The translations under genes and the position numbers were made by a program. This document shows positions 3,212 through 64,000 of a stretch of DNA of 64,000 nucleotides, piece by piece. Where the stretch lies: NCBI GenBank assembly GCA_947383145.1, contig CANDCH010000001.1, positions 310,001-374,000 of the forward strand, written 5' to 3'. Source of the DNA: an uncultured bacterium. GTDB lineage: Bacteria > Bacillota > Clostridia > Oscillospirales > Oscillospiraceae. Under the pieces are notes generated by a model that had not been told where the DNA came from, made no database searches, and saw nothing but the letters and a program-made list of their open reading frames with translations. Within the stretch, counting starts at the first letter, position 1; each line of letters begins with the position of its first letter.

Positions 3212-3248
3212 CTTTCCAAATAAAAACGCCCCTGCCCCCAAACGGAGA
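3212..3248 (-). terminator. T-box intrinsic terminator
   Basis: Reading the minus strand, CGCCTTTGTCTCC pairs along 13 positions (several G:U) with GGGGGCAGGGGCG, followed directly by TTTTTATTT. This is the off-state hairpin of the isoleucine T-box. Confidence 0.85.
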
Positions 3249-3490
3249 CAAAGGCGCAAACCTCTGCGGTACCACTCCAATTCCGTAACAAATTACGGCA
3301 CTCGTATGCGCTGTAACGGGCACACCCGGCGGGGCTTACTGGCCTGACTGTCTGAAACAGTCGCGTTCAGTCCGCGGCTCCCAGGGGATATTCGCCGGGT
3401 CCGCCCCGCCGCCCTCCCACCGTGCGGGCGGCTCTCTGAGGGGGTTCCTCCGGTTACTCGTCCTGTTCAAAGCCTCTGAAAATTTACTTA
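3220..3490 (-). ncRNA. Isoleucine T-box leader
   Basis: On the minus strand the leader contains the T-box core GGAGTGGTACCGCAG (about 3264-3278), matching the consensus AGGGTGGNACCGCG that pairs with the free CCA end of uncharged tRNA. Stem I features are visible: GACGAGTAA (AG bulge side), an AGAGAG distal loop, and GAATATCCCC with the Ile codon ATC at 3387-3389 as the likely specifier. It ends in a long G:U-tolerant terminator hairpin. The target genes, zinc ribbon and ileS, fit the ATC specifier. Confidence 0.9.
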
Positions 3491-3523: not shown

Positions 3524-3729
3524 CCGTTTTCACAGATAAAACTTCACAAAAAACGCGGCCCTCCCGTCCCGCGCCGCCGACGACCGCCCCGGAGCGGACG
3601 GCCCGCCCCGGAGGCGCAGTATATGGACCCTTCCCGCCTCTCGGTGACCAGACACAAGCGGCAGCGCAAATAGGAGCATCAGCGTCGAAAGCCCCACGCG
3701 CCGGAAGGTCAAAGCAAGCCTATCCTGTC

Positions 3730-3886
3730 GGGCTCTCCCGTAAACAGGGGGATTCTTAGGGGGAAAGCCGCCTGTGAGCGAGGGAGCGCCCTTTGCTCCC
3801 GAAGCCGAACCGGCGGATTGCCCCCTAAGCATTCTCTTTGGGTACTTTCTCTCATGGGAGAGAAAGTACCCCGCCGGAGGCCATCC
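3730..3886 (-). repeat. Structured intergenic element, copy A
   Basis: Full-length copy of a composite element, in inverted orientation to copy B at 4870-5016. On the minus strand it reads: flank CCTCCGGCGG, palindrome GGGTACTTTCTCTC / GAGAGAAAGTACCC (3840-3871), the tail CCAAAGAGAATG, a long second hairpin closed by CTTAGGGGG and CCCCCTAAG (3755-3763 with 3821-3829) containing an inner GGGAGC/GCTCCC hairpin, then CCCCCTGTTTACGGG. No credible gene overlaps it. Function unknown. Confidence 0.8.
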
Positions 3887-3899
3887 CCGCCGGGGATGG

Positions 3900-4844
3900 T
3901 CAAGCCCGCACAGCCTGAAACGCGTGCCACCCGCCCCGCTCCAAATGCCTTGTGACCGCAAGGCCGTTGACCTCGAGGGCGGCCTTGACCTCCTCCTGCC
4001 TCCCGTCGATGACGCCGGAGGCGAGAAACACCCCGTCCGGGGTCATGAACTCCCCAGCCCTCGCCGACAGGGGAATGATGACGTCCGCCACGATGTTGGC
4101 CAGCACCACCCGGTTTTGCCCCGGCTTCAGCCGCGCCGCCAGCTTTTTGTCGCCGAGCACATCCCCGGCGTATACGCTGAGCCGGTCCGGGCCGACGCCG
4201 TTGAGGGCGGCGTTCTCAAAGGCCACGTCCGCCGCCTTGGGGTCGATGTCCACCCCGGCGGCCCGGCCGGCGCCCAGGGCCAGGGCGGCGATGGCCAGAA
4301 TGCCGGACCCGCAGCCCAGGTCCAGCACCCGGTCGCCGGGGCGCAGCGCCTCCTCCAGCAGCTCCAGGCACAGCTGGGTGGTGGGGTGGGCCCCGGTGCC
4401 GAAGGTGAGGCCGGGATTCAGATACAGCGGCGTGCGCCCCTCCGGCACGGGCTCCCCCCGCATCCAGTCGGGAACGATGTACACCCGCCGCCCCACCGGG
4501 ATGGGCTGGTAGTACTTCTGCCAGGAGGTGGCCCAGTCCTCCTCCCGCAGGGAGACGGTCTGGGGCTCGTACTCCTCCAGCCCCGCCAGATACCGCCGGA
4601 GCTGGTTTTGCCCGTCCGCGTCGTCCGGGACGTAGAACTTCACCCGGCTGGCCCCCTTCATGCGGGCGGCCAGGTCCTCGTCCACATAGTCCCAGTACTG
4701 CCGGTTCTGCTCCAAAAAGCGGAGGAAATCCCCCTCTTCCTCCACCACCAGCCCGGACATGCCGTTGGCGGTGAGGACGCCGCACACCCGGTCCAGCTGT
4801 TCCGCCGGGACGGGCAGGGTCACTTCTAACCACGTATCGCTCAT
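3900..4844 (-). CDS. prmA: Ribosomal protein L11 methyltransferase
   Basis: SAM-dependent enzyme that trimethylates ribosomal protein L11. The C-terminal half carries the Rossmann motif VLDLGCGSGILAIAA and the post-motif VLANIVADVI typical of PrmA, and it ends in ERGGWHAFQ as the family does. The start is the ATG at 4842-4844, preceded by AAAGGAGCG; a longer frame upstream would translate the neighbouring palindrome and is not credible. At 314 residues it matches the family. The gene stands alone between two inverted copies of a structured repeat, so it may move or be insulated as a unit; that is inference. Confidence 0.95.
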   Translation of the reverse strand: MSDTWLEVTLPVPAEQLDRVCGVLTANGMSGLVVEEEGDFLRFLEQNRQYWDYVDEDLAARMKGASRVKFYVPDDADGQNQLRRYLAGLEEYEPQTVSLREEDWATSWQKYYQPIPVGRRVYIVPDWMRGEPVPEGRTPLYLNPGLTFGTGAHPTTQLCLELLEEALRPGDRVLDLGCGSGILAIAALALGAGRAAGVDIDPKAADVAFENAALNGVGPDRLSVYAGDVLGDKKLAARLKPGQNRVVLANIVADVIIPLSARAGEFMTPDGVFLASGVIDGRQEEVKAALEVNGLAVTRHLERGGWHAFQAVRA

Positions 4845-4869
4845 GGGACGCTCCTTTCTGGAGGCCCGG

Positions 4870-5016
4870 CCTCCGGCGGGGTACTTTCTCTCCCATGAGA
4901 GAAAGTACCCAAAGAGAATGCTCAGGGGGATGCCCTCCGGGCGGACATGGCCCCAACGACGGGCCATGTCCTTTAGTCGGGCCTCCCCCTGAGAACCCCC
5001 TTTACGGGGGACGCCC
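4870..5016 (+). repeat. Structured intergenic element, copy B
   Basis: Same architecture as copy A but on the plus strand: flank CCTCCGGCGG, palindrome GGGTACTTTCTCTC / GAGAGAAAGTACCC (4879-4910), CCAAAGAGAATG, a second hairpin closed by CTCAGGGGG (4921-4929) and CCCCCTGAG (4985-4993) with an inner 11-bp stem GGACATGGCCC/GGGCCATGTCC, then CCCCC-TTTAC-GGGGG. Relative to copy A the closing stem has changed T:A to C:G, a compensatory substitution. Confidence 0.8.
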
Positions 5017-5111
5017 TATACGGCGGGCAGGTCCATACCCTTCCGGCGCGTGGGGAGTACGACTGGCGCCACCCCATTGGCGCTGCCGCCTGTGTCCGGG
5101 CACTGTCAGGC

Positions 5112-5160
5112 GGGCAGGACCCACCGCCCGCGCCTGGGGGGCGGGCGGTGGGTCCTGCCC
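5112..5160. repeat. Perfect 20-bp hairpin beside parS
   Basis: GGGCAGGACCCACCGCCCGC (5112-5131) and its exact reverse complement (5141-5160) enclose a 9-base loop. No T-run follows on either strand, so it is not a normal intrinsic terminator. It lies between structured element B and the parS site, downstream of the minus-strand gene at 5215. Confidence 0.8.
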
Positions 5161-8242: not shown

Positions 8243-8277
8243 TCCCAACCCTTCCTTTTCTCGAATTGTATCCATCC

Positions 8278-8413
8278 TTGTCACGCTTCAATTGGCCGCG
8301 CGGCCAGGTCGCTTTCCCTTCGTCTCGGATCAAATCCGCGCCGCTTTGCGGCGCTGGGTTTTTATCCTCGCTGCGGTCCAAGCTCTCTTGCGCGGTTACC
8401 GTCGCGCTTCCTC
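8278..8413 (-). repeat. CAAAACCC-type intergenic repeat, copy 1
   Basis: Aligns along its whole length with the 136-bp tandem unit after hfq (17137-17408). Shared blocks on the gene strand: GAGGAAGCGCGA right after the upstream stop codon, CCGCGCA, CTTGGA-CGCAGCGA, a core hairpin (8331-8363), GGCCGCGCGGCCAAT and GCGTGACAAGG. It separates the GyrI-like gene from murT. Confidence 0.75.
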
Positions 8414-15686: not shown

Positions 15687-15737
15687 GCCCGCCGGGAGGT
15701 TTTCATGAATCCCAACATCCTTGTCATATGCGGGCCC
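15687..15737 (+). repeat. Direct repeat, copy 1 of the miaA start region
   Basis: A 51-base stretch identical to 15878-15928. It contains the ribosome binding site GGGAGG, an ATG and the first 11 codons of miaA. Confidence 0.95.
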
Positions 15738-15899
15738 GCCCCATGCCGCTGCGCGGCACGGGGACCCCTTGATTTATCCTGCGCGGGCGGAATGAATCCG
15801 CCCCGCGCCAAGGTTTTGCTCCGCAAAACGCTTGTACGGCGCTTCGCGCCGCCCCACTTCGCGGGGCCCTGCCGTGGGCCCGCCGGGAGGTTTTCATGA
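15705..15899 (+). CDS. Upstream ORF made by duplication of the miaA start
   Basis: 64 codons. It begins with the same ribosome binding site, ATG and first 11 residues (MNPNILVICGP) as MiaA, then diverges into a 140-base GC-rich insert rich in small inverted repeats. Its TGA stop overlaps the true miaA ATG in the sequence ATGA (15896-15899), which would couple the two translations. The peptide is probably not functional itself; the arrangement may set miaA expression. Not a conserved gene as far as I can tell. Confidence 0.45.
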   Translation: MNPNILVICGPAPCRCAARGPLDLSCAGGMNPPRAKVLLRKTLVRRFAPPHFAGPCRGPAGRFS

Positions 15900-15928
15900 A
15901 TCCCAACATCCTTGTCATATGCGGGCCC
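15878..15928 (+). repeat. Direct repeat, copy 2 (true miaA start)
   Basis: Second copy of the 51-base repeat, 191 bases downstream of the first. It holds the ATG used by the intact miaA reading frame. Confidence 0.95.
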
Positions 15929-16897: not shown

Positions 16898-17152
16898 ATG
16901 AGCCTTACATCCACTGTCTCCGCCGTCAAGCAGCCCAACATCCAGGACGCCTTTTTGGCCAGCGCCCGCCGCGCGGCCGCCCGTGTCACCGTATTTCTCA
17001 TGAACGGCTACCAGCTCCGGGGGGTCATCACCGCCTTTGATCCCTATGTGGTGGTGGTGGTGTCCGACGGCCGGCAGCAGGTGATCTACAAGCACGCCAT
17101 CTCCACCATCGCCCCGGAGCACCCGGTGGAGCTGGAGGAAGCGCGAGGATAG
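16898..17152 (+). CDS. hfq: RNA chaperone Hfq
   Basis: 84 residues. Sm-fold motifs are clear: the N-terminal QDAFL, VTVFLMNGYQLRG (Sm1) and YKHAIST (Sm2, the YKHA poly-U site). Hfq forms a hexameric ring that helps small RNAs pair with mRNAs. It follows miaA. The last four codons and the stop (EARG-stop, 17138-17152) lie inside the first unit of a 136-bp tandem repeat, so the C-terminus was probably altered or fixed when the repeat arrived. Confidence 0.96.
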   Translation: MSLTSTVSAVKQPNIQDAFLASARRAAARVTVFLMNGYQLRGVITAFDPYVVVVVSDGRQQVIYKHAISTIAPEHPVELEEARG

Positions 17153-17408
17153 CCGCGCAGGGACGCTTGGAGCGCAGCGAAAGCAAAACCCCAAGGCCCG
17201 CAAAGCGGGACTGGGTTTTGCTTGAGGCGCAGCGAAAGCGGCCCGGCCGCGCGGCCAATCCGAGCGTGACAAGGAAGCGCGAGGATAGCCGCGCAGGGAC
17301 GCTTGGAGCGCAGCGAAAGCAAAACCCCAAGGCCCGCAAAGCGGGACTGGGTTTTGCTTGAGGCGCAGCGAAAGCGGCCCGGCCGCGCGGCCAATCCGAG
17401 CGTGACAG
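17137..17408. repeat. Tandem 136-bp repeat after hfq (two units)
   Basis: Units 17137-17272 and 17273-17408 are almost identical. Each holds a core hairpin (17184-17220 and 17320-17356) that on the minus strand reads CAAAACCC, CCCGC-TTT-GCGGG, GGGGTTTTG, then TCGCTGCGCTCCAAGC. A GGCCGCGCGGCC palindrome lies near the other end. Related copies are at 8278-8413 and 58484-58675. The first unit overlaps the hfq stop codon. Nothing else is seen between hfq and the gene at 17457. Confidence 0.9.
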
Positions 17409-25173: not shown

Positions 25174-25228
25174 TGCCTCCGGCGGGTTCCTTTTTCTCGA
25201 GAGAAAAAGGAACCGAAAAAGAGCTTGA
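25174..25228 (+). repeat. Variable palindrome element, copy C
   Basis: Flank TGCCTCCGGCGG, palindrome GGTTCCTTTTTCTC/GAGAAAAAGGAACC (25185-25214), then GAAAAAGAGCTTG. Same layout as copies A, B, D and E but with different stem bases. Confidence 0.75.
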
Positions 25229-41450: not shown

Positions 41451-41660
41451 CCCCTGAATTGTCCGGCGCAGGCAGGTTTTCCCCCGGGCGGGATGGCATA
41501 TCTTGTTGTCTTTTGGCGGATGGGCGGGAGGGACGGCACATTTTGTGGGGCTCTTGGCGGAACCAACAAAAATGAGTCCGATTTTTCGTCCTTCTGCCAA
41601 GCCCCTTGACAGCGCGCCCCCAATGACATACAATAGAAGCGCCGCAAAGTGAATGGAATA

Positions 41661-41758
41661 TCACAGGGGCGCTGGGAGCATTCCCGGCTGTGATGTGGAA
41701 CGAATTGCAGTTCCCGGTCCCTCGTACCTGATCCGGGTAATGCCGGCGTAGGAAGTGA
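41661..41758 (+). ncRNA. TPP riboswitch
   Basis: The thi-box core ACCTGATCCGGGTAATGCC and GGCGTAGGAAGTGA is near-identical to the consensus, and CAGGGGCGC at the 5' side matches the other conserved arm. TCAC (41661-41664) and GTGA (41755-41758) close helix P1. Thiamine pyrophosphate binding should switch off thiT. Confidence 0.95.
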
Positions 41759-41793
41759 ATCCGACAAGATGGGCCGTTGTCGTTTCTCTCGCT

Positions 41794-53400: not shown

Positions 53401-53866
53401 CCAGCGCCCGCCGGAGTGCACGGTGGACCTGACGGTGTCCGCCTCCATCCCGGACCGGTACGTGCCCGACGCGGGGCAGCGGATGGACCTGTACCGGCGC
53501 ATCGCCCGGGTGCGCACCCAGGAGGACGGCGACGACATCACCGACGAGCTCATCGACCGCTTCGGGGACCCGCCCCGGCAGGTGAACGCCCTGATCTCGG
53601 TGGCCCTGCTCCGGGGGCAGGCGGCGGAGTGCCGGATCACGGACATCTCCCAGAAGGGGGCCTCCCTGGTCTTCACCCTGGACGGGTTCAGCCTGGAGCA
53701 CATCGCCGCCCTGGCGGGGCAGTACCCCGGCCGGATGCTGTTCTCCCCCGGGGAGCCTCCCGCCCTCACCCTGAAGCTGCGCCGCACCGACGACCCCCTG
53801 CGCGTGGCCGCCCAGGCGGTGGAGCGGTACAGGGCCCTGCTGGCCCCGGCGAAAAAGGAACCCTAG
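50471..53866 (+). CDS. mfd: Transcription-repair coupling factor Mfd
   Basis: 1131 residues. UvrB-like N-terminal domain, RNA-polymerase interacting domain (around LIVHEHHGIGRFVGM), then the RecG-like translocase with GDVGYGKTEVALRA, DEEQRFGV, SATPIPRT and GRVGRSPRRAYAY, and the C-terminal TRCF domain. It removes stalled polymerase and recruits UvrA. It starts 89 bases after pth; a short piece resembling the dispersed repeats lies between. Confidence 0.98.
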   Translation: MKLLLNILDTVPEFARLTADLEAGRSPVEVAGLSPVHRAHFAAGLLDRLDRPVVLVCAGEDECARLAADVTALTGTPSVMIGAREFLFHDGAVASRQWEHRRLAAFRAMAQGGARLIAATAEGLLQRTLPPEELAAHVVEVDAKGSYDLDGLADRLAALGYTRCHQVEGVGQFALRGGILDVFSPGADDPVRVEFWDRDVDSMGPFDVSSQRRVGRLDRAEFLPVSELLPLRDENGNWTRPGDRQLPARYKALATAAHHLPPDAVVCLSESSRVAERGKNWLWQLNEDVKTLLEAGKLDGKHARFAATLEELMAELSRRALCFLDSFTTSNPPLPPRDILTAQGRQLSSFGASLDAAAADLTQLQNANTAAVVLVGSEQRALNLQSLLRERKIRSAVDFQLHELPQPGGITIAVGGLSAGFDYGGCPYAVLTEGGGEPKRRGKRLKHAADRRKVDSFTDLSPGDLIVHEHHGIGRFVGMVKMTVDGVDKDYVKLAYAGADVLYLPATQLDAIAKYIGAGDDPETKKLSKLGGGEWEKAKTRTRKAVKDLAKGLIQLYAQRQRQPGYAFAPDSPWQKEFEEDFPYDETEDQLRSIREIKGDMEAPRPMDRLLCGDVGYGKTEVALRAVMKCVLDGKQAAILVPTTVLARQHYLTARSRFAKYPVEIEVVSRFRTPAQMKKALAGVENGSVDLLIGTHRLLQKDVQFKDLGLLVVDEEQRFGVTHKERLKELSKQVDVLTLSATPIPRTLNMALSGIRDMSAIEEPPSNRQPVQTYVLEHDWGVLADAMRRELERGGQVYYLHNRVDTIQRTAARIKELLGEDAAVAVGHGKMSQEELSDVMTRVSDGEVDVLVCTTIIETGIDIANVNTLIIEDADKMGLSQLHQIRGRVGRSPRRAYAYMTYRQGKVLTEIAAKRLSAIREYAEFGSGFKIAMRDLEIRGAGNLLGPEQSGFLMSVGYDLYLKLLEEAVLEEKGEKPQRPPECTVDLTVSASIPDRYVPDAGQRMDLYRRIARVRTQEDGDDITDELIDRFGDPPRQVNALISVALLRGQAAECRITDISQKGASLVFTLDGFSLEHIAALAGQYPGRMLFSPGEPPALTLKLRRTDDPLRVAAQAVERYRALLAPAKKEP

Positions 53867-53876
53867 GGGCCCCGGA

Positions 53877-54204
53877 GTCGTGCTGCGAAGCCTCCGCAAC
53901 CTGTAGTCGTGCTGCGAAGCCTCCGCAACCTGTAGTCGTGCTGCGAAGCCTCCGCGACGGGCCCTAAGCCCTCCGACTGCGCCAAAACCCTTCCGGCGCT
54001 CCGCGCCTCCTTGGGCTTTTGGCTCCGCTCCGGCCTTAGTCCCCTGCTCCCGGCTTCTCCGCAACCTGTGTCGTGCTGCGAAGCCTCCGCGACGGGCCCT
54101 AAGCCCTCCGACTGCGCCAAAACCCTTCCGGCGCTCCGCGCCTCCTTGGGCTTTTGGCTCTGCTCCGGCCTTAGTCCCCTGCTCCCGGCTTCTCCGCAAC
54201 CTGT
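53877..54204 (+). repeat. Nested tandem repeats after mfd (29 bp x2, 135 bp x2)
   Basis: Two 29-bp units (53877-53905, 53906-53934) are followed by two 135-bp units (53935-54069, 54070-54204) that differ by one base I noticed; each 135-bp unit begins with a 29-bp-like motif GTCGTGCTGCGAAGCCTCCG. Each 135-bp unit has a core CAAAACCC, GGCGC-TCC-GCGCC, GGGCTTTTGG (53993-54022, 54128-54157) like the repeat family behind hfq. No gene in this stretch. Confidence 0.92.
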
Positions 54205-62419: not shown

Positions 62420-62512
62420 GGGCCCTGCCGGGGGCGGTGCGTTCTCTCATGTGAGAGAACGCACCCAAAGAGAACATTTAGGGGGCAATCCGCCGGTTCG
62501 GCTTCGGCGCTT
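62420..62512 (+). repeat. Variable palindrome element, copy E
   Basis: Flank CTGCCGGGGGCGG, palindrome GTGCGTTCTCTCA-TG-TGAGAGAACGCAC (62437-62464), then CCCAAAGAGAACATTTAGGGGGCAATCCGCCGG-type sequence shared with copy A for about 45 bases before it diverges. It is a partly truncated copy of the composite element. Confidence 0.75.
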
Positions 62513-62516
62513 TTGT

Positions 62517-62541
62517 TGAAACCAACCGGGCCCTTTTCGTG
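62517..62541 (+). promoter_or_regulatory. ECF-type promoter of the sigma factor gene
   Basis: TGAAAC, 15 bases, CGTG: resembles the sigma-W-like pattern TGAAAC-N16-CGTA, so the sigma factor may activate itself. Confidence 0.45.
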
Positions 62542-62590
62542 TTATGATAGATGAAAAGCGTTTTTCAAGTTTGCCATGAAAGAGGGTGGT

Positions 62591-63160
62591 ATGGTGAAAG
62601 AGGAACAATTGGTGAAGGCCCTGCGCCGGGGAGAGCTGTCCGCCCTGGAGGCGCTGATGGACCGCTACACGCCCTATGTGTCCTCGGTAATCTCCCGGAT
62701 TCTGCGGGGACGGGGGGCGGACGCGGAGGAGTTGACCGCCGACGTATTCCTGGCCGCCTGGGACAACCGGGACAAGCTGCGCCCCGGCGGGGTCAAGGGC
62801 TGGCTGGGGGCGGTGGCCCGGAACAAGGCGTTCAACCTGCTCCGGGCGGCCCGGGAGCATCTGCCCCTGGAGGAGGACGCGCTGCTTTTGGAGGCGGACG
62901 GCCCCGACCGGGAGCTGGACAAAAAAGAGACGGCCCGCATCGTCAACAGGGCCCTCTCCCGGCTGGACCGCCCCCAGCGGGAGCTGTTCGTCCGGCACTA
63001 CTACTACGGCCAGACCGTCCAGGAGGCGGCGCTGGCCATGGGGCTGAACCTGTCCACCGCCAAGACCTGGCTGCGCCGGGGGCGGGAGGAGCTGAAAACA
63101 ATCTTGGAAAAGGAGGGCTACGGACATGAAGCGGCTGGAGATTTCCAGGCTCATGGATGA
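62591..63160 (+). CDS. ECF sigma factor
   Basis: 189 residues. Region 2 (ALMDRYTPYVSSVISRILRGRGADAEELTADVFLAAW quoted as ALMDRYTPYVSSVI and ADAEELTADVFLAAW) and region 4 (LPAPQR-like LDRPQRELFVRHYYYG, LNLSTAKTWLRRGREEL) are both clear. The start at 62591 has GAGGGTGG upstream. It overlaps the next gene by 35 bases, the usual sigma/anti-sigma arrangement. Confidence 0.93.
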   Translation: MVKEEQLVKALRRGELSALEALMDRYTPYVSSVISRILRGRGADAEELTADVFLAAWDNRDKLRPGGVKGWLGAVARNKAFNLLRAAREHLPLEEDALLLEADGPDRELDKKETARIVNRALSRLDRPQRELFVRHYYYGQTVQEAALAMGLNLSTAKTWLRRGREELKTILEKEGYGHEAAGDFQAHG

Positions 63161-63875
63161 GTACACGGACACGGAGTTTTTCCCCGAGGGGGGGAGCGCC
63201 GCCAATCCCCAGGCGGTGAGGGGCTGGGTTTTGGCCAACGCCAAGGCCCCGGCGGCGAAAAAACGGGCGCCCGGGAGAAAAAAGCTGCTGCTGGCGGCGG
63301 CGCTGGCGGCGGTGATGGTGGCGCTGGCGGGGGCGGGGCTGCCCTCCGTGATTTACCGGCTGGCCGCGGGCGGCACGCTGGAATTTATGGAGGACGCCGA
63401 GAGCCGGACGGTTACCTACCGCCAGGGGAACCCCCCCATCGCGCTGGAGGACGGGCGGCTGTACTTCGTGCTGGACGGACAGCACACCGACCTCACCGGC
63501 CAGATCAGCGAGGACACGCCCTATCTCTATGACGCCGGCGACCCGGAGCAGGACCTGGTCTGCTATCTGATTCTGGGCGGCACGCCGGACAATTACGGCT
63601 GGATGGAGTGGACCTCCGTCCCCGACCCCTTCACCCCCAGCGAGTCCATCCGCCTGTCGGACGGAAGCGGACGGCTGTGCAGCTATGATTACACCTACAC
63701 CATCCACGGCGGGAGCGAGAACCAGGAGTCCTACACCTCCGGCGGAACTGGAGTCGGGACCGTCGCCTGGGAGGCCGGCCGGTTCCGCCCCTGGCTGCTG
63801 GCCGGACTGGAGGAGCTGGGCATTCCCTATGAAATCGTCCCGCCTGAAAAAATCACTACCTTTTCCAGCCCATAG
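63126..63875 (+). CDS. Putative anti-sigma factor, single-pass membrane protein
   Basis: 249 residues. A cytoplasmic N-terminus of about 55 residues (basic end KKRAPGRKK), one membrane helix (about 53-75: LLLAAALAAVMVALAGAGL), and an extracytoplasmic beta-rich domain (DGRLYFVLDGQHTDLTGQIS, YDAGDPEQDLVCYLIL). The overlap with the sigma gene supports anti-sigma function by context; I see no zinc-binding HxxxCxxC motif. Ends at a terminator. Confidence 0.7.
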   Translation: MKRLEISRLMDEYTDTEFFPEGGSAANPQAVRGWVLANAKAPAAKKRAPGRKKLLLAAALAAVMVALAGAGLPSVIYRLAAGGTLEFMEDAESRTVTYRQGNPPIALEDGRLYFVLDGQHTDLTGQISEDTPYLYDAGDPEQDLVCYLILGGTPDNYGWMEWTSVPDPFTPSESIRLSDGSGRLCSYDYTYTIHGGSENQESYTSGGTGVGTVAWEAGRFRPWLLAGLEELGIPYEIVPPEKITTFSSP

Positions 63876-63882
63876 ATGATAT

Positions 63883-63910
63883 AATGGACTCCCCCGCCGG
63901 GGAGTCCATT
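63883..63910 (+). terminator. Terminator of the sigma/anti-sigma operon
   Basis: AATGGACTCCCC-CGCC-GGGGAGTCCATT followed by TGCGTTTT. The remaining bases to 64000 hold nothing I can assign. Confidence 0.85.
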
Positions 63911-64000
63911 TGCGTTTTGCGGGAGACGCCCCGGCGGTGCACCCCGGAGGCGCAGCACCGTGGGCCGCAGTCGTCTCCAGTGTTTGGACACCGGCGGCAG

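Follow-up and report, generated by a model that had tools for sequence, protein, structure and literature searches.

Structured copies flanking prmA are single arms of a large dispersed Oscillospirales repeat family whose matched changes suggest selection on a pseudoknotted triple helix

The window analysed here, 64,000 nucleotides from an uncultured bacterium of the Oscillospiraceae (contig CANDCH010000001.1, positions 310,001 to 374,000), contains a prmA gene located between two structured sequence copies, A on the minus strand and B on the plus strand. The locus raises the question of what such copies are: structures selected as RNA or as DNA, or the two ends of a mobile cassette carrying the gene that they enclose.

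Layout of the copies and extent of the family

The two inverted copies flanking prmA, reported in a first-pass annotation of the sequence, were recovered both from the sequence itself and as the inverted repeat I1. Their proposed three-part layout (palindrome, long hairpin and short C/G hairpin) is present, and it missed a conserved 3′ domain. Because this domain comes after the short C/G hairpin, the spans first assigned to the copies (3730–3886 and 4870–5016) were too short, and the HMM matches extend further (Table 1). In the alignment, A and B have a common layout over about 270 bp, hereafter an arm, composed of an outer hairpin (H0), the palindrome H1, a short linker (L3), the long hairpin H2, the short C/G hairpin and the 3′ domain. 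Both copies fold better than all of their 200 shuffles (z of −6.8 for B and −4.6 for A). A recent single duplication, which could also have produced the pair, does not explain it, since B is closer to copies in two other species (78% identity, query positions 41–246) than to A (73%, query positions 9–259).

Table 1. Coordinates of the arms, their parts and other features in the window
Feature	Position	Strand	Basis or remark
Copy A, whole arm	3605..3893	−	H0 side (3893) beside the prmA stop, tail end at 3605; HMM match 3605–3881 and alignments
A, hairpin H1, 14 bp, minus-strand loop CCAT	3840..3871	−	sequence, fold
A, third strand AAAGAG mirroring the 3′ arm of H1, with the loop-complementary triplet ATG	3830..3839	−	
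A, long hairpin H2, CTTAGGGGG...CCCCCTAAG	3755..3829	−	fold, pair counts
A, TCCCC, mirroring the 3′ arm of H2	3748..3752	−	its T is opposite a G-C pair, off the triple code
prmA, between A and B, not part of the element	3900..4844	−	
Copy B, whole arm	4860..5142	+	begins just upstream of the prmA ribosome-binding site; HMM match 4869–5142 and alignments
B, hairpin H1, 14 bp, loop CCAT	4879..4910	+	sequence, fold
B, third strand AAAGAG with the loop-complementary triplet ATG	4911..4920	+	
B, long hairpin H2, CTCAGGGGG...CCCCCTGAG	4921..4993	+	fold, pair counts
B, CCCCC third strand (4996–5000), alternatively the short C/G hairpin of the first-pass annotation	4996..5010	+	
B, conserved 3′ domain (TTCCGGCGC, GCTGCCGC, GCGCCT)	5011..5142	+	alignments
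Lone H1-like palindrome, then AAAAAGAG, mirror of the palindrome 3′ arm	25179..25224	+	
Copy E, partial arm	62428..62510	+	minus-strand arm follows just beyond the window, tail from 63941
T-box leader, upstream of ileS	3241..3479	−	Rfam
136-bp exact tandem duplication with GAGCGCAGCGAAAGC...GAGCGTGACAA	17136..17407		inverted relative at 8275..8413
51-bp exact direct repeat	15687..15737 and 15878..15928		191 bp from start to start
TPP riboswitch	41655..41771		Rfam
Tandem array, 29-bp and 135-bp periods (GTCGTGCTGCGAAGCCTCCGCAAC)	53858..54204		

Used as a DNA query, B matched nine places in the genome of the window (E ≤ 3e-5) and 23 of 60 genomes, its own included, when 12 candidates were scored in each. 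A covariance model of the H1–H2 core (R1), built from 36 copies and scoring the H1 and H2 pairs together with plain sequence, has matches in 37 of the 42 genomes of the window's genus (E ≤ 1e-5), the richest of which contains at least 85 among 86 candidates scored. In the order, it detected 40 of the 295 sampled genomes, corresponding to 27 of 148 genera (E ≤ 1e-4; 12 candidates scored per genome). An exact H1 pattern retrieved 110 stretches in genome contigs named as uncultured bacterium, Oscillospiraceae, Clostridia, Clostridiales or Bacillota. A scanner based on architecture only gave 173 matches when run over 2.22 million positions, both strands counted, of fetched DNA, which the fetching itself had enriched in elements, and none in 0.68 million positions of first-order shuffles. 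A phage, plasmid or virus origin was rejected, as B had no match among phage or plasmid records and two exact H1 patterns had none in viral contigs.

The annotator knew no named element of this composition, and neither do the resources that we searched. No Rfam family reached the gathering cut-off over A or B in a search of the whole window, nor with permissive E-values for B, whose best sub-threshold match is a microRNA model, and literature searches, judged from their listings except for PMC4666352, returned no description of this repeat class.

Matched changes in stems, loop and third strands

The change of the pair closing H2 from T-A to C-G, on which the initial claim of covariation was based, is genuine: the two columns read TA in 103, CG in 14 and CA in 9 of 129 copies. 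Strong covariation is seen in H1 and in the outer part of H2 across these 129 distinct full-length copies. An alignment of 75 of 98 non-redundant copies misaligned H1 types of unequal length; pair counting was consequently limited to one H1 type (36 of the 75), and copies of the remaining types were analysed with a parser. Pairing in the three helices amounts to 99.3% over these 36 copies (34 distinct rows), and double-change cells number 69 versus 22.1 in shuffles, a value reached by none of 500 shuffles. The number of further pair types (13 versus 14.3) showed no excess, the only one of five measures that was not above the shuffles.

A second kind of matched change links the H1 loop to a strand outside the hairpin. 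Read in reverse complement, the triplet located just 5′ of H2 gives the three final bases of the loop, in the versions ACG/CGT, GCG/CGC, ACA/TGT, ATG/CAT, CCG/CGG and GCA/TGC (127 copies listed, 126 with a four-base loop), suggesting a pseudoknot. This rule is obeyed in all 126 parsed copies out of 129, one of the others yielding no hairpin and two no H2 start with the pattern applied. It holds in 48 of 48 distinct modules, versus a mean of 12.8 and a maximum of 24 in 5000 triplet swaps. In the alignment A3, all three pseudoknot pairs show 100% pairing, every departure altering both sides. In the H0 hairpins of units from one genome (G020, loci L165 and L166), the loop also seems to be repeated as its complement just downstream (TCTCGC/GCGAG and TCCCGC/GCGGG).

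Each of the two hairpins is accompanied by a mirror of its 3′ arm. L3 starts with the mirror of the H1 3′ arm (AAAGAG for the stem CTTTCTC, AAAGAC for CTTTCTGC and AAAAGG for CTTTTCC), and the mirror of the H2 3′ arm lies 3′ of H2, from which it is separated by about two bases, mostly AA. A mirror strand is parallel to the purine strand, which excludes it as an alternative Watson–Crick partner, and it fits the requirement of a T.A-T / C.G-C triple helix. In 129 copies of the window's genus, the H2 triple (purine-strand base, partner and third-strand base) is on code in 118 (G-C-C in 85, A-T-T in 33) and off code in 11 (A-C-C in 6, G-C-T in 4, including copy A, and A-C-T in 1). Among 77 distinct stems, 45 conform to one register pattern, in which A faces T in 20, G faces C in 24, G faces T in one (copy A) and A never faces C. 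Mirrors of mixed C/T composition of at least 5 nt occur in 34 of the 77 stems, versus a null mean of 18.5 and a maximum of 27 in 2000, in a test on related copies that was picked, like the register pattern, after the alignments and the swap result for mirror length had been viewed. The latter gave a small excess in raw length (5.08 versus 4.74, maximum 5.01 in 500), small because CCCC is common to most arms. Exact mirrors are mostly 5–6 bases long in these stems, which come mostly from the window's genus (longest mirror of at least 6 in 32, at most 5 in 45). They are longer in the units of another genus, g7, with 10 and 9 nt in the two arms of a unit: AGGGAGAGGG with TCCCTCTCCC in one arm (one base shorter in some copies) and GGGGAGAAA with CCCCTCTTT in the other. 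Counter-examples with A in place of the expected T in the H2 third strand were found in two genera (L227 and L229).

Both rules were also scored in 19 loci outside the training set (L220–L238, three of them from the window's own genus) found by R1, which scores neither rule. Eighteen were parsed, 15 of which have a loop complement of at least three bases, and the pseudoknot and mirror scores were both above all 3000 swaps, in a count that includes several loci per genus (five of g7, three of the window's own genus and two of g52). L221 has no loop complement; the low scores of L228 and L233 come from different stem limits set by the parser. When each other genus was represented by a single locus (n = 10), the mirror mean was reached by none of 5000 swaps and the pseudoknot mean by 15 of 5000, a weaker result for the pseudoknot in a test that reuses the same automatic parse, including its errors. 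Both rules hold in other genera despite unlike sequence. Covariation, loop pairing and mirror strands bear out the proposed selection on structure more strongly than had been claimed, and these matched changes suggest selection on a triple helix with a pseudoknot, which most likely consists of single-stranded DNA.

The preference for DNA comes from two features. G.T cells represent 0.8% of 1536 in H1 and 0.6% of 1161 in outer H2, versus 6.2% of 96 pairs in a small control of eight tRNAs from the same loci; A-C cells (2.1%) exceed G-T cells (0.6%) in H2, giving a weak strand preference for G.U. Within an arm, the third strand is made of purines at H1 and of pyrimidines at H2, and the reverse is true on the other strand. 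The passages on RNA in Holder et al. (2015; PMC4666352) state that intrastrand triplexes of the pyrimidine type occur in RNA and that purine-motif ones cannot form, in which case only DNA could form both triplexes at once. From rare G.T pairs and triplexes of opposite motif, we infer that folded single-stranded DNA is favoured over RNA.

Units, orientation and signs of movement

Among 108 arms scoring at least 25 bits in the 110 contig stretches, 62 belong to convergent inverted pairs; of the unpaired ones, 29 have room for a partner and 17 are close to a stretch end. Arms that neighbour each other within 1.5 kb are convergent in 31 cases, divergent in none and in the same direction in seven; three divergent neighbours lie 2.6–2.7 kb apart. 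The typical unit consists of two arms with tails inward and measures about 0.5–1.4 kb, the interiors of convergent pairs being 34–88, about 133, 233, 529–599, 672 or 744–745 bp long. A small XRE helix-turn-helix protein or DUF6809 is encoded within some of the larger interiors. Of the 38 H1 matches in genus g7, 32 are arranged as 16 convergent pairs spaced by 448–461 bp. Among the neighbour pairs listed under 3 kb, none that converge have an interior longer than 1.5 kb, and a larger autonomous unit was not found. At the end of the window (62428–64000), copy E and a minus-strand arm just beyond it flank a sigma-factor-like gene and may form a convergent unit that carries this gene as cargo.

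In one genome (G017), consistent differences separate the two arms of a unit, so that the unit is polar and seems to multiply as a whole, and inspection by eye shows H1–L3 cassettes swapped between otherwise similar units. Outside some units of the same genome (L176, L178, L179 and L180) lies a remnant of another H0–H1 end, cut near the hairpin tip, as if ends had been replaced via breakage at the tip and recombination. In g7 (L239–L258), units are flanked by further shared hairpins in varying combinations, forming a BIME-like mosaic.

Presence and absence were observed at one orthologous site: in G042 and G089, two convergent genes are separated by a unit of about 750 bp, whereas in G070 and G134 the same gene pair has only a terminator-like hairpin. 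No target-site duplication is visible there (flanks about 94% identical) and the unit takes the place of the hairpin, so that the difference may also reflect loss in two species. At another locus, the unit has opposite orientations in G070 and G042, and at one L255 locus the element marks the point at which synteny with G070 is lost. The family is a widespread, structure-coded and probably mobile repeat.

Two candidate mobilisers, the Y1 and IS110 transposases, have no simple link to copy number, each being absent from several high-copy genomes. The Y1 transposase (PF01797) has no match in the window's genome; it is present in 16 of the 42 genus genomes (drafts, 69–95% complete) and absent from G027, G028, G036, G017 and G006, five of the seven richest genus genomes with 37–57 R1 matches each. 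DEDD_Tnp_IS110 is present in G027, G028 and G017, is represented only by a sub-cut-off fragment in the window's genome and was not found in G020, G036, G060 and G002.

Inverted copies on both sides of a single gene had suggested the ends of a cassette carrying prmA, an idea that we reject as barely credible after the wider comparison. A and B have their tails outward, opposite to the 31 convergent pairs, and the prmA neighbourhood exists without them. The gene is present in 40 of the 42 genus genomes; the gene upstream of it is the same in 9 of 15 readable relatives, with no element between, and an arm beside the prmA start occurs only in the window's genome among the 16 of 23 genus loci that are readable downstream. 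The downstream gap of these 16 loci contains a plus-strand element in the window's genome, G015 and G033, a minus-strand one in G031, G022 and G036, a remnant in G014 and nothing in nine. A and B are best read as separate solo arms. Sequence similar to the tandem duplication at 17136–17407 was also seen downstream of prmA in G022 and beside an element copy (flank of L048); together with its inverted relative, it perhaps represents a second repeat family.

Competing explanations and known systems

The explanation that we favour, with confidence evenly balanced between its being right and wrong, is that of a non-autonomous mobile repeat family, with A and B as two of its solo arms; each arm would fold as single-stranded DNA into two consecutive intramolecular triple helices recognised by an enzyme acting in trans. 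In the first triplex, a purine third strand would lie along H1 and be held in place by pairing with the H1 loop; in the second, a pyrimidine third strand would lie along H2. In the usual unit of two facing arms, the folded DNA at each end would be bound by the enzyme, and the unit would thereby be moved or copied. Several points weigh against this explanation: the short triplexes in the window's genus, the protonation that C-rich third strands require, the 11 off-code H2 triples among 129 copies (copy A included), the A in place of T in L227 and L229, the missing loop complement of L221, the lack of a readable target-site duplication at the one present/absent site and the failure to find an enzyme.

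Part of the same observations could be expected if one strand were transcribed and folded as a triple-helix pseudoknot RNA, a reading that we consider doubtful while giving it appreciable weight. On the complementary strand, H1 has the geometry of an H-type pseudoknot with a U-rich loop in the major groove, as in telomerase RNA and SAM-II, and the excess of A-C over G-T cells in H2 would correspond to G.U on that strand. Against it, G.U-type cells are rare on both strands, no promoter-like site is present inside A or B, the same intergenic site holds either orientation, and the two triplexes of an arm are opposite in motif, the purine motif being reported, in the passages of PMC4666352 on RNA, not to form there. 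Perfect stems with few G.T cells would also suit palindromes without function, kept perfect by template-switch correction during replication and spread by recombination, as would the exchange of terminal H1 cassettes among near-identical units (judged by eye) and the synteny break at an element; template switching within a hairpin does not match a loop to an outside strand, and parallel mirror repeats kept in step across genera are left unexplained, making this reading improbable.

A role as an intergenic bidirectional terminator or stabiliser of mRNA 3′ ends appears highly improbable. Several units do lie directly 3′ of stop codons, and one occupies the position of a terminator-like hairpin that relatives have between convergent genes, but in A and B no terminator-like site covers H1 or H2 (the T tail is weak in two matches found at the H0/H1 edge), B is located directly upstream of a ribosome-binding site, and neither a pseudoknot nor mirror strands would be required for such a role.

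Returning to folded single-stranded DNA, its fullest form, mobile DNA with ends read as a pseudoknot-clamped double intrastrand triplex and kept across the order by a base-triple code, is a tentative proposal, somewhat more likely to be wrong than right. To our knowledge, such end recognition is known for no transposon. If true, it would provide comparative (covariation) evidence for selection on intrastrand triplex DNA in bacteria, and would account for an abundant repeat class of Oscillospirales, undescribed in our literature searches and also located at a synteny break. The copies of earlier triplex repeats are highly alike, as described in the relevant part of PMC4666352, and therefore cannot by themselves show triplex selection; here, the sequence differs and the triple code is kept, so that triplex selection would be testable with a few oligonucleotides.

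Several known systems resemble this family in part. REP/BIME elements are likewise palindromic intergenic repeats, with inverted pairs and a mosaic of modules. REP/BIME elements themselves are marked by a GTAG-type tetranucleotide 5′ of the hairpin foot. They differ in needing a RAYT (Y1) transposase, which was not found here in the window's genome or in five of the seven richest genus genomes. MITEs are also short, mostly non-coding sequences with terminal inverted repeats, many copies and presence or absence at orthologous sites, whereas the present arms are about 270 bp long with an internal tertiary code, no autonomous partner was seen, and no duplication was read at the one site. Telomerase RNA and SAM-II form H-type triple-helix pseudoknots, in which the hairpin loop pairs with a distant strand and the linker lies along the stem as a third strand. 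The arms share this arrangement and differ in being dispersed and nearly strictly Watson–Crick, in having a second triplex of opposite motif, and in lacking an Rfam match above cut-off. The PIT, BoxC and TM_ECO motifs (Holder et al., 2015; PMC4666352) are, in the parts of that work which describe them, dispersed intergenic repeats on both strands with a predicted intrastrand triplex, five cases being in inverted pairs (Hoyne and Maher, cited there). They correspond to one 37-nt motif with copies highly alike, in a search described there as limited to a hairpin with a mirror third strand of at least six bases (PMC4666352), a mirror length found here in genus g7 (9 and 10 nt) and in 32 of the 77 distinct stems overall, the other 45 falling short of it. 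As far as that description goes, the difference is one of architecture: the present family combines two triplexes of opposite motif with a loop pseudoknot, is organised in units and keeps its code in diverged sequence.
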